The notes beneath the pieces are model-generated. The model had not been told where the DNA came from. It saw nothing but the letters and a program-made list of their open reading frames with translations, and made no database searches. The position numbers were made by a program, and so were the translations under genes. Positions 2,685 to 46,985 of a stretch of 52,114 nucleotides of DNA are shown in pieces. The stretch spans positions 1 to 52,114 of the forward strand of contig JAFTID010000017.1 of NCBI GenBank assembly GCA_017457085.1, written 5' to 3'. Numbering within the stretch: the stretch's first letter is position 1; every line of letters begins with the position of its first letter. The DNA is from Phascolarctobacterium sp. GTDB taxonomy: Bacteria > Bacillota > Negativicutes > Acidaminococcales > Acidaminococcaceae.

Positions 2685-2807
2685 AAAAAGTGATAGAAGT
2701 ACCGGAAGGCGCGAAGCAGTGAAATTCGTGAAGCGAAGGCGTACTGAGCGTACGTCGAGCAAGCGAATGAACTGCGACAAAGCATAACGGTGCTTATAGC
2801 ACTTTTT
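2685..2807 (-). repeat. Dispersed palindromic repeat, copy A
   Basis: This is a full copy (about 123 bp) of the repeat also found at 3762, 14107 and 39281. Read on the minus strand it begins inside the last codons of the dipeptidase gene (stop at 2794-2796). Outer arms (AAAAAGTGATA / TATAGCACTTTTT) pair with a 2-base bulge. The inner stem pairs GCAGT..ATTCG with CGAAT..ACTGC, and the tip is CGTAC, 5 bases, GTACG. It may act as the gene's own terminator. Confidence 0.85.
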
Positions 2808-3761: not shown

Positions 3762-3882
3762 AAAATCGTTATAAGCACTGTTATGCTTTGTCGCAACTCA
3801 TTCGCTTGCTCGACGTACGTCTAGTACGCCATCGCTTCACGAATTTCGCTGCTTCGCGCCTTCCAGCACTTCTAACGATTTT
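3762..3882 (+). repeat. Dispersed palindromic repeat, copy B
   Basis: Full copy, 121 bp. Outer arms AAAATCGTTA (3762-3771) and TAACGATTTT (3873-3882) are perfect complements. The inner arms at 3793-3804 and 3840-3852 pair through ATTCG/CGAAT, and the tip CGTAC/GTACG is at 3814-3828. It lies between the dipeptidase start and the dcuC terminator. Confidence 0.9.
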
Positions 3883-11376: not shown

Positions 11377-12432
11377 ATGAAGAAAGTTTACAGATACCTA
11401 ATGCTTTCGGTGCTAACTTTGCTGCTTATGTTTACAAGCATTTGCTGTGAGGCTGCTACAACTGAAAAAGAAGAAGCGCGTTCAAATTCTGATGCTGCTA
11501 TGCATTTATGTAGTAGTATGAGCAAAGGTGTTACAGAGCTTTTGGTAGATGATTTCGTAAAACGCAATGGCGTTAAGGTGCAGATAAGGTATTTGCCAGA
11601 AGGTTCTTGGCAGGAACGTAAGGAATTCCTTGAAAAGAACAGCTTTGATTGCTGGCTAGGTGGTACCGTTGAAGAATGTTACCTTGCTGACCAGGAAGGG
11701 ATGCTTAGTCCCTACAAGCCCAAGGAATTTTACAAGATGCCTGTGGAATTACGTACCAGACAAGGACAATGGACCAGTATCTTTTTAGAATACATTGCTT
11801 TCGTCAGCAACACCAACAAGCTACGTGATAATGGACTATACGCACCGGATACTTGGCAAGAACTTTTGCTACCAGAATTTAAAAATGAAATCGCCATGGT
11901 AAATTTTGCCAACGGAAGTACCAGCTACGCAATGATTACTTCTATTTGGCAACTACGTGGTAAAGATACAGCGCTAAAATTTGCAGATAGATTGAACCAG
12001 CAAAACATCCACTTCACCGAAACCTACGAAGAAGCAGTTGGTATGGTAGATAGGGGAGAGAAAATGGTAGCAGTTGTACCCTTGCGTACAGCAATCCTAC
12101 TGGAAACGAAGCACAAGCATCTATTTGCAACTGTTGTTAAAGATGCTAACCGCAACCTACTGAACTGCGCTGCGGTTATGAACAAGGCTAACAATCTAGA
12201 AGCTGCCCGCAATTTTATTGACTACCTAGTAAGTGATTTTAGCGAAGCAGTGCTTAGAAGCGAAGGCTACCATTATATTTGGCACGCTAAGAATTATCCC
12301 TATAATGACGGACGTAAAGAGCTTATTGGTAACGTCAATGTTCCTGTTGATGATTTAAGCTGGACGGCTGTCAGCAAAGATGAAATTATTAAAGAATGGC
12401 TTAATGTAAGCAAAACGGAGGAAATAAAATGA
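11377..12432 (+). CDS. Diverged extracytoplasmic solute-binding protein paralogue
   Basis: The 351-residue protein resembles the binding protein at 7332 in layout (SWQE.., a YLADQEGMLSPYKPKE segment, YIAFVSNTNKL, TWQELLLPEFKNEIAMVN) but is strongly diverged. The N terminus is a signal sequence with an ICC at its end rather than a clear lipobox. I start at the ATG at 11377, which follows AAGGAAG; an upstream extension of the frame covers the terminator. Its stop overlaps the leuA start by 4 bases (ATGA), implying translational coupling. Ligand unknown; it may be an accessory receptor or sensor for the same importer. Confidence 0.75.
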   Translation: MKKVYRYLMLSVLTLLLMFTSICCEAATTEKEEARSNSDAAMHLCSSMSKGVTELLVDDFVKRNGVKVQIRYLPEGSWQERKEFLEKNSFDCWLGGTVEECYLADQEGMLSPYKPKEFYKMPVELRTRQGQWTSIFLEYIAFVSNTNKLRDNGLYAPDTWQELLLPEFKNEIAMVNFANGSTSYAMITSIWQLRGKDTALKFADRLNQQNIHFTETYEEAVGMVDRGEKMVAVVPLRTAILLETKHKHLFATVVKDANRNLLNCAAVMNKANNLEAARNFIDYLVSDFSEAVLRSEGYHYIWHAKNYPYNDGRKELIGNVNVPVDDLSWTAVSKDEIIKEWLNVSKTEEIK

Positions 12433-14108
12433 AACAAGCAAAACAATACGTACCCTTTGAACGAGTGAACCTGCCTGACCGCCAATGGCCTGACAAAATT
12501 ATTACTAAAGCTCCCATCTGGTGCAGTGTTGACTTGCGTGATGGTAACCAAGCTTTGGTAACCCCCATGGGCATTGAAGAAAAGTTGACTTTCTTCCATA
12601 CCTTGGTTGATGTTGGTTTTAAAGAAATCGAAGTAGGCTTCCCCTCTGCTTCCGAAACTGAATATGATATTTTACGTACCTTGATTGAAGGTAACCACAT
12701 CCCTGATGACGTTACTATTCAAGTTTTGGTGCAAGCCCGCGAAGAACTTATTCGTAAAACTTTTGAAGCAGTCCGCGGCGCAAAAAACGTTATTATCCAT
12801 TTCTACAACTCCACCTCCACCCTGCAACGTAAGGTTGTATTTGGCAAAGACATGGACGGCATCGTAGATATTGCTGTGCAAGGCGCACGTCTTATCCGTC
12901 AATTGACCGAGGAAGAAGTGGCTCGCAGTGGTATGAACATTCGTTACGAATATTCTCCTGAAAGCTTTACTGGTACTGAAATTGATTTCGCTATCAGAAT
13001 TTGCGAAGCTGTTATGGAAGAAATGGGTGCTACCAAAGAGAACCCCATCATTCTTAACCTGCCTTCTACCGTAGAAATGTGCACCGCTAACACCTACGCA
13101 GACCAAATTGAATATTTCTGCCGCAATATGAAAAACCGCGAGGCTGCCATTATCAGTATTCATCCCCACAATGACCGTGGTACTGGCGTAGCTTCTGCAG
13201 AGCTTGCAGTTATGGCAGGTGCTGACCGCATCGAAGGTACTCTTTTTGGTAATGGCGAACGCACTGGTAACTTGGACATCGTAACCGTTGCCCTGAATAT
13301 GTTTACCCAAGGCGTAGATCCTGAACTGGACTTCTCTGAAATTTTGGAAATCAAAAAGATTTACGAAGCTTGCACCCATATGCACGTGCCTGAACGTCAA
13401 CCCTACGCAGGCGAGCTTGCTTTTACTGCGTTCAGCGGTTCTCACCAAGATGCTATTCGTAAAGGCTTTGAATATATGGAAAATACAGGTACTCCTTACT
13501 GGGAAGTTCCGTACCTGCCCATTAACCCTGCGGACTTGCATCGCGAATACGAACCTGTAATTCGCATCAACAGCCAATCTGGCAAGGGTGGTGCTGCTTT
13601 CGTACTGCAACACGCTGTTGGCTACAACCTGCCCAAAGAAATGCATCCTGAATTTGGCAATATTGTTAAGGCTGCTGCTGACGAATATGGTGACGAACTT
13701 AGCCAAGACCAAATTGTTGACCTGTTCCATCGCGAATACATTGAACGTTCTGGCGCATACAAACTGCTCCGTCATCGCTTCGCAGAACTCCACGAAGCAG
13801 ATGGTTCCGTTCACAGCCGTTTCGAAGGATCCATTAACGTTGGCGAAAAAGAATGCCACATTGTTGGCGTAGGTAATGGTCCTATCGACTCCTTCTTTAA
13901 TGCTTTGTCCCACGCTGGCATTGAAGGCTACAAATTTGTTAACTACCACGAACACGCTGTATCTAGTGGTTCCAATGCGCAAGGTATCTGCTACATCGAA
14001 CTGAAGAAACCCAATGGGGAACATATCTTTGGTGCGGGCATGCATCCCAACGTTAACGTGGCGGCACTTTTAGGCATTATTTGCGCAATTAATAGAGCTG
14101 AGCAATAA
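12429..14108 (+). CDS. leuA: 2-isopropylmalate synthase (LeuA type 2)
   Basis: The 559-residue enzyme condenses acetyl-CoA with 2-oxoisovalerate, the first step of leucine synthesis. The DRE-TIM barrel occupies about residues 25-310, with SVDLRDGNQAL at its start and metal-binding HPHNDRGTG near 240. The C-terminal LeuA allosteric domain (about 430-555) ends in the G-MHPNVNVAAL region. The PDRQWPDK and LRDGNQAL features place it with the longer LeuA2 form found in many bacteria. It is coupled by a 4-base overlap to the binding-protein paralogue. No T-box or leader peptide is visible before it. Its stop codon lies in the left arm of repeat copy C. Confidence 0.92.
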   Translation: MKQAKQYVPFERVNLPDRQWPDKIITKAPIWCSVDLRDGNQALVTPMGIEEKLTFFHTLVDVGFKEIEVGFPSASETEYDILRTLIEGNHIPDDVTIQVLVQAREELIRKTFEAVRGAKNVIIHFYNSTSTLQRKVVFGKDMDGIVDIAVQGARLIRQLTEEEVARSGMNIRYEYSPESFTGTEIDFAIRICEAVMEEMGATKENPIILNLPSTVEMCTANTYADQIEYFCRNMKNREAAIISIHPHNDRGTGVASAELAVMAGADRIEGTLFGNGERTGNLDIVTVALNMFTQGVDPELDFSEILEIKKIYEACTHMHVPERQPYAGELAFTAFSGSHQDAIRKGFEYMENTGTPYWEVPYLPINPADLHREYEPVIRINSQSGKGGAAFVLQHAVGYNLPKEMHPEFGNIVKAAADEYGDELSQDQIVDLFHREYIERSGAYKLLRHRFAELHEADGSVHSRFEGSINVGEKECHIVGVGNGPIDSFFNALSHAGIEGYKFVNYHEHAVSSGSNAQGICYIELKKPNGEHIFGAGMHPNVNVAALLGIICAINRAEQ

Positions 14109-14226
14109 ACTTTCCATAAGCACTGTCTAACTTTGTTGCCGTAAAATTACTTGCTCGACGTACTACTAGTACGCCTTCGCGGCATAATTTTACGTCGCCT
14201 CGTTATACAGCACTTCTGAAAAGTTT
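14107..14226 (+). repeat. Dispersed palindromic repeat, copy C
   Basis: Full copy, 120 bp. The outer arms at 14107-14115 and 14218-14226 are near-perfect complements (AAACTTTCC against GAAAAGTTT), and the left one includes part of the leuA stop codon. The inner stem is completely different from other copies (CGTAAAATTA with TAATTTTACG) but still perfectly paired. The tip CGTAC/GTACG is kept. The trailing T-run suggests it serves as the leuA terminator. Confidence 0.85.
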
Positions 14227-31539: not shown

Positions 31540-31571
31540 GGCTCTGTACTTGGCGGGTACAGAGCCTTTTT
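31540..31571 (+). terminator. Hairpin with T-run directly before a short ORF
   Basis: GGCTCTGTAC (31540-31549) pairs perfectly with GTACAGAGCC (31557-31566), followed by TTTTT and then immediately the AAAGGAGAGG ribosome site of the short ORF at 31585. Its placement suggests an attenuator or a terminator of an unseen short transcript. Confidence 0.7.
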
Positions 31572-31584
31572 AAAGGAGAGGTGT

Positions 31585-31680
31585 ATGATGAAAAGATGTT
31601 GTTCTATTGCAGCTGCTCTACTCAAGAGCTACTACGGTAAGGAAGTTTGTTTGCTTCCTTGGTTATATGATAGCAAATAG
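31585..31680 (+). CDS. Putative 31-residue peptide with strong ribosome site
   Basis: A short ORF (MMKRCCSIAAALLK, then YYGKEVCLLPWLYDSK) begins 3-4 bases after AAAGGAGAGG and ends at TAG 31680. It contains three cysteines and a mildly hydrophobic start. The region around it (31431-31801) has no other gene. It is bounded by an upstream hairpin with T-run and the downstream hairpin at 31723, so it looks like its own transcription unit. No family recognised; it may be a leader peptide or a dual-function RNA. Confidence 0.4.
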   Translation: MMKRCCSIAAALLKSYYGKEVCLLPWLYDSK

Positions 31681-31722: not shown

Positions 31723-31755
31723 AAAACACGTTATATAGCACTTCTAACGTGTTTT
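31723..31755 (+). repeat. Minimal form (F) of the dispersed repeat, terminator-like
   Basis: Perfect 11-base arms AAAACACGTTA (31723-31733) and TAACGTGTTTT (31745-31755) flank the 11-base loop TATAGCACTTC. This loop equals the two ends of the full repeat (TATAAGCAC and AGCACTTC) joined at their shared AGCAC, as if the middle had been lost or never gained. A T-run follows, so it should terminate the short-ORF transcript. Confidence 0.75.
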
Positions 31756-31772
31756 TGATTTGATAAATGAAT

Positions 31773-31798
31773 AAAAGGACTGCCGAAGCAGTCCTTTT
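31773..31798. terminator. Terminator of the PFOR gene
   Basis: AAAAGGACTGC (31773-31783) pairs perfectly with GCAGTCCTTTT (31788-31798) around CGAA, right after the minus-strand stop at 31802. Confidence 0.9.
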
Positions 31799-31801
31799 TA
31801 C

Positions 31802-35329
<3,528 letters not shown>

Positions 35330-39280: not shown

Positions 39281-39403
39281 AAAATTAGCTATAAGTATTG
39301 TTATGCTTTGTCGCAGTTCGCTTATTTGCTCGACGTACCACTAGTACGCCTTCGCTACATAAGCTTCACTGCTTCGCGCCTTCCAGCACTTCTAGCTAAT
39401 TTT
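39281..39403 (+). repeat. Dispersed palindromic repeat, copy D
   Basis: Full copy, 123 bp. The outer arms AAAATTAGCTA (39281-39291) and TAGCTAATTTT (39393-39403) are perfect complements, and the right one includes two bases of the larE stop codon. The inner stem pairs GCAGT..GCTTAT with ATAAGC..ACTGC, a different sequence from copies A-C but still paired. The tip CGTAC/GTACG is kept. Confidence 0.9.
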
Positions 39404-44749: not shown

Positions 44750-44775
44750 AAAGAGTACTAGTCACAATCTTACTC

Positions 44776-44889
44776 CTACACTCTCGAAACAACTTCTACA
44801 GCATCACCTTGACTGCGAAGCCAAATGTCCAAGCCTTTTCCGAAAACTTCTGCGGTGACAAGGTAACCTTTTTCGTCTTGACCGCACAC
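44776..44889 (-). pseudogene. 3' remnant of a WYL-domain regulator gene (copy 1)
   Basis: On the minus strand the segment reads VCGQDEKGYLVTAEVFGKGL, then DIWLRSQGDAVEVVSRV and a stop: the C-terminal end of a WYL-domain transcriptional regulator. The homology to copy 2 (46793) stops abruptly near 44889, and no upstream part exists, so it is a truncated remnant. The 124-bp block 44766-44889 is directly repeated at 46783-46906. A 3' scrap of another ORF on the plus strand (VVLANGTIKGKEPEKVKNLT, stop near 44975) follows. Confidence 0.75.
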
Positions 44890-45082: not shown

Positions 45083-45120
45083 GCGTTTTTTCCGAAAGAG
45101 AACCCTATCTGTAAAGCTTT

Positions 45121-46773: not shown

Positions 46774-46792
46774 GTTATTTATAATCTTACTC

Positions 46793-46985
46793 CTACACTC
46801 TCGAAACAACTTCCACAGCATCACCATGGCTGCGGAGCCAAATGTCCAAGCCTTTGCCGAAAACTTCTGCGGTGACAAGGTAACCATTTTCGTCTTGACC
46901 GCACACTTTTGCGGTAGGAAGTCTATCTAGCACGGCTTCAAGGGACTTTCCTTTATAGTCATATCCTCTAAAAATTTAGTCAAGT
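46793..46985 (-). pseudogene. 3' remnant of a WYL-domain regulator gene (copy 2)
   Basis: On the minus strand the segment reads IFRGYDYKGKSLEAVLDRLP, then TAKVCGQDENGYLVTAEVF, GKGLDIWLRSHGDAVEVVSR, V and stop. It is the same WYL C terminus as copy 1 but 26 codons longer. No start or N-terminal part exists upstream; the next 200 bases (to 47188) are AT-rich and show no gene. Together the copies suggest repeated recombination into one ancestral WYL gene. Confidence 0.78.

Follow-up and report, generated by a model that had tools for sequence, protein, structure and literature searches.

The 33-bp hairpin at positions 31,723–31,755 of the Phascolarctobacterium contig analysed here (the window, 52,114 nt in all) is very probably what an internal deletion has left of a 120-bp element, an imperfect palindrome of MITE/ERIC-like kind that is non-coding and dispersed in the genome. 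Its kinship to the 120-bp repeat is not chance, because a covariance model of the element matches it end to end and its inner 19 nt, GTTATATAGCACTTCTAAC, are obtained from one deletion with zero mismatches. The window genome (G000) comprises 1.93 Mb in 90 contigs; the genomes compared with it, G001, G002 and G003, represent separate species, keeping in mind that many sister genomes are incomplete drafts.

The hairpin, its surroundings and its probable deletion junction

The hairpin has a perfect 11-bp stem and an 11-nt loop, and its predicted fold has an energy of −9.7 kcal/mol (z −3.5). By itself a perfect 11-bp inverted repeat in 52 kb is, by our estimate, mildly unusual at most. The covariance model of the 120-nt element, built from 85 copies, matches 31,724–31,754 from model position 1 to 120 with the middle missing (19.4 bits, E 0.014 in the window search), and sequence, fold and model together bear out an earlier note on this DNA that had pointed to a hairpin with repeat-like arms here. 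The features of the locus are:

31,723–31,755, plus strand: minimal 33-bp form, arms AAAACACGTTA/TAACGTGTTTT, loop TATAGCACTTC (sequence, fold, covariance model, deletion-junction match)
31,773–31,798: canonical bidirectional terminator of a nifJ-like gene (ORF 31,802–35,311, minus strand), distinct from the minimal hairpin (terminator scan)
31,540–31,566: second canonical terminator, left of the 31,723 locus (terminator scan)

The closest named relatives of the nifJ-like gene are from Phascolarctobacterium and other Acidaminococcaceae. The hairpin is situated between its terminator and the apparent promoter region of a small minus-strand gene, thioredoxin-like to judge from its sequence, that is present in G002, G013 and G025 and deleted in the window genome (31,590–31,720) and G001, where its ends remain. 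The stub probably does little more than fold into a weak hairpin, with the nifJ terminator on one side and the promoter region of this lost neighbour on the other. A search of plasmid DNA with the locus as query gave no match. Close by, at 31,572–31,616, is a block, AAAGGAGAGGTGTATGATGAAAAGATGTTGTT, that resembles a ribosome site with a mini-ORF, following a terminator; it is near-constant across genera (G002 L033, G013 L036, G025 L035) while its surroundings diverge, and short pieces of it have further matches in G019 and G029.

In full copies of right-end subtype B (described below) GTTATA occurs at the end of the left arm and again just within the right end, and a join between them reproduces the inner sequence without any difference and retains both matched arms; a single internal deletion between the two GTTATA repeats derives GTTATATAGCACTTCTAAC from four existing full copies without a mismatch. 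This one-step match, with the covariance match over both ends, upholds the proposal that the minimal form arose by collapse of a full element, but not the junction proposed for it. Collapse at AGCAC would yield TATAAGCACTTC or TAAGCACTTC instead of the loop TATAGCACTTC, and AGCAC has no part in the junction at this locus. As a deletion junction AGCAC does have a place in sister species, two minimal hairpins (G001 L181 and G002 L244:19157, the latter also in L215) being joined exactly at AGCAC and AGCACT, but it is only one of several junctions. A second minimal form of the 31,723 type, G003 L081, has GTTATAC at its junction, and for the minimal form in G002 L258 it is TCT, or TCTAAC (read by eye) if one mismatch is allowed.

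The short forms grade in size between about 33 and 100 bp, with varied junctions of 1–7 bp homology (1–5 bp in the longer remnants), intermediate sizes being represented by L072, L074/L087, L293, L303, L304, L315 and L318. All those found retain both arms and element sequence from both ends, though for one, L079, there is no single-deletion parent among the full copies compared. A scan for the end motif gave 17 candidates with the real motif against 1–4 with each of four control motifs. Since the junctions are at several different short repeats, they have the signature of deletion and not of insertion into a fixed target. Deletion would run from full to short, a direction taken from the junctions and not from observation, perhaps by slipped mispairing or hairpin-stimulated deletion at replication. 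Such deletion during replication is the usual behaviour of palindromes. Both arms would outlast it because the junctions fall inside the hairpin base. The parent would be a MITE/ERIC-like repeat dispersed by some enzyme. The hairpin at 31,723 could have arrived already short.

Full and short forms at orthologous sites

Among orthologous sites, six are occupied by full elements in some species and by short forms in others:

Site 1: G000 L030 full, G002 L258 minimal, G001 none
Site 2: G002 L259 full, G001 L181 minimal
Site 3: G000 L024 full, G002 L244:19157 minimal
Site 4: G001 L219 full, G002 L244:16226 short
Site 5: G001 L064 full, G000 L079 short
Site 6: G003 L061 and G002 L063 full, G000 L086 short

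The alternation of full and minimal forms that had been foreseen is thus found, with AGCAC as the exact junction at two of the six, but among the sister species compared it does not extend to 31,723. There no hairpin is seen in G001 or G002, the locus has been rearranged in G003, and a full element is present in none of them, and so insertion followed by deletion is not seen stepwise at this locus. G002 has a full element at three of the four full-copy sites of the window, all four of which the covariance model recovers:

2,686–2,806, minus strand: full element, subtype A; full in G002, none in G001; stop codon of the upstream gene within the left arm region (read from sequence)
3,762–3,882, plus strand: full 120-nt element, right-end subtype A; full in G002 and G003 (with different arms in G003), none in G001
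14,107–14,226, plus strand: full element, subtype B; full in G002; first left-arm bases shared with the stop codon of ORF 12,429–14,108
39,282–39,402, plus strand: full element, subtype A; none in G002; G001 has GACGCGTTTTA there, which may be a relic right arm

At some orthologous sites the element is entirely absent in one species, and comparison of G000 L004 with G001 L213 points to the possible replacement of one copy by another. As outright absence is also seen, presence/absence, shrinkage and possible replacement all occur.

That the minimal hairpin of G000 has no counterpart in G001 or G002, and that short forms occur in all four genomes, would also suit a short version that is mobile in its own right as a unit. 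This is improbable, as the inner sequences and arms vary among the short forms and six of them are at sites with a full element in a relative, as local deletion predicts. Less probable still is that the hairpin is an empty pre-insertion site or a terminator, with full elements inserting into its loop and AGCAC duplicated as the target, for which the two minimal forms joined exactly at AGCAC and the terminator-like AAA/TTT ends could be cited. In all minimal forms, however, both element ends are represented by element-specific sequence, three different repeats act as junctions (GTTATA at 31,723) and the element-free sister species are without a hairpin at the locus, so that the label of empty site given to it in the earlier note has to be given up. 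The same holds for a 5-base target duplication, because AGCAC is within the element arms and a scan for direct repeats beyond them gave no convincing excess at lengths of 2–5. That an ordinary intrinsic terminator resembles the repeat by chance is scarcely credible, for although its 11-bp stem is followed by five T, it has a loop of 11 and low GC where such terminators have a GC-rich stem, a short loop and a T-run, it received no call in the scan that called two proper terminators close by, and its 19 nt are exactly what one deletion step in existing copies would give.

The 120-bp element, its placement and its arms

The 120-nt unit has the form [AAA-N5-6-A]TAAGCAC...tip GACGTAC-nnnnn-GTACGCC...GCACTTCT[N6-TTT], with two right-end subtypes, A (CCTTCCRGCACTTCT) and B (CGTTATAYAGCACTTCT). 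Full copies recognised with the covariance model number about 57 in the window genome, 30 in G001, at least 59 in G002 and at least 59 in G003. In the hairpin of the element 96.0% of cells are paired, compared with 82.5% in shuffles, with changes on both sides in 22 of 30 pairs. The core string is nearly restricted to the genus and to genus g17. Matches to the left end without the core are either due to chance or belong to copies that are short, diverged or truncated, and no autonomous copy was recognised among them in a survey that covered ORFs unsystematically. Related hairpins with other ends were found by model search in other Negativicutes families, e.g. 53 copies in G044; many copies per genome of hairpin repeats that follow this plan and have long constant ends (GACAGATAGG..., GGCTGTTSAAAAAGG...) are present in G044 (L329, L334, L344, L349) and G047 (L330, L337, L342). 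Other repeats were noticed in passing: a 131-bp direct repeat with 93% identity at 44,759–44,889 and 46,776–46,906, 2 kb apart, with more repeats at 45,113 and 47,652, and, at L088 (G000 contig C65, ~19,021), repeats AATTTCTACTnTTGTAGAT, which we take to resemble a Cas12a-type CRISPR array.

Of 103 copies, 69 have the stop codon of a long ORF between −20 and +14 relative to the left arm, in most cases overlapping the first arm bases, and 12 have one on the right side; counting either side gives 72, compared with about 11 for shifted positions. A co-oriented ORF starts within 110 nt downstream in 55 copies, and within the same distance 37 have a separate terminator-like hairpin (control 4). From these positions the copies are mostly 3′-untranslated or intercistronic, and oriented, though the 103 placements are not all independent events as some related copies share a site. 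The separate terminators just downstream, like that at 31,773–31,798, tell against the idea that full elements grow inside the loops of intrinsic terminators.

The end arms are 9–10 bp long, pairing ending sharply beyond about 10 bp, and there are 59 different left arms among the 103 copies. Nonetheless the outer nine arm pairs are Watson-Crick in 88.6% of cases versus 63% with shuffled partners (shuffle maximum 67%). Between the orthologous copies G000 L015 and G002 L253 there are differences at 4 of 61 unpaired positions and in two compensated arm pairs, and G000 L027, with arms AAACTCGTTA/AGCGAGTTT, differs from its ortholog G002 L200, with AAACGCGTGA/GACGCGTTT, at 7 of 61 unpaired positions. 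Arm changes between close orthologous pairs are 46 single and unmatched versus 15 double and fully matched; the greater frequency of single unmatched changes makes gradual compensation possible. Two full elements in G002, L259 9447 (AAACGCGTGA with GACAAATTT) and L258 6532 (AAAATAGCTA with AACGCTTTT), have mismatched arms and may be chimaeric or half replaced.

Selection on a top-strand RNA was considered and set aside, as top-strand mismatches are G-T in 32 cases versus A-C in 78, the opposite of what it predicts, a count that is suggestive only as the copies are related. Copying of the arms from the target was likewise discarded, since a 7/8 direct match is present in 4 of 103 left flanks versus a shuffled mean of 3.1. 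Template switching from one arm to the other may be what keeps the arms matched, or selection may act on the DNA hairpin; quasipalindrome mutation by template switching is described for E. coli (PMC7202029). The parent repeats are odd in that each copy has its own matched end pair and most sit exactly at a stop codon. It is conceivable, though rather doubtful, that they form a mobile or maintained class of DNA hairpins with constant inner bulges, in which each copy, even at one site in sister species, has its 9–10-bp end stems rewritten to a matched pair of its own, perhaps through a template switch in the palindrome or by an enzyme requiring a closed hairpin, and which settle at stop codons in one orientation.

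Relation to known repeats and implications

Imperfect-palindrome intergenic repeats such as ERIC, MITEs and REP are well known as a general kind. Searches of the literature yielded no description of this 120-bp repeat, those with sequence strings giving unrelated matches only, and comparison of the window with Rfam 15 at gathering score returned tRNA alone, the element matching no family. The ERIC/IRU sequences of enterobacteria are imperfect palindromes of about 127 bp, intergenic and without an ORF, with length variants and with effects on mRNA at gene 3′ ends (partly after the review PMC10969869). The Phascolarctobacterium element is like them in plan only, with no sequence relation claimed, and unlike them in that its arms are copy-specific and compensated and its copies share a single orientation at stop codons.

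MITEs, e.g. the Correia elements of Neisseria, are short and non-coding with terminal inverted repeats, tens of copies, presence/absence between relatives and size variants (PMC10969869), all of which the Phascolarctobacterium element shares. It has terminal inverted repeats (arms paired in nearly all copies), no coding capacity and 57 copies; unlike MITEs its terminal repeats vary between copies instead of being constant, and no target-site duplication or parent transposase was detected. With REP/BIME sequences and their RAYT it has in common extragenic hairpins with conserved mismatches, but it is 3–4 times longer, and a Y1 (PF01797) transposase, of which G002 has two, was found in none of G000 (92% complete), G001 and G003. 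As the mover, a Y1 transposase was rejected on its absence from the window genome as assembled. In Geobacter a family of multicopy palindromic elements, 24 predicted short RNA elements with the centre GRCGTAGCGCTGCTACGCC, is intergenic (PMC2700814), and its tip looks very similar to GACGTAC-nnnnn-GTACGCC of the Phascolarctobacterium element. The distant Negativicutes elements matched by the model have the plan in common with it and different ends.

The 31,723 stub is therefore an ordinary decay product, and the parent repeat a new variant of a well-known repeat kind. It is an example of how such repeats die, by shrinkage at short internal repeats, leaving behind a small hairpin that is mistakable for a terminator or an insertion target. 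Of greater importance than the stub is the parent family, whose tight and oriented association with stop codons allows a direct test of insertion choice or of a function at 3′ ends, and whose end stems, specific to each copy yet matched internally and showing few G-T intermediates, are a natural record of the upkeep of palindrome pairing.
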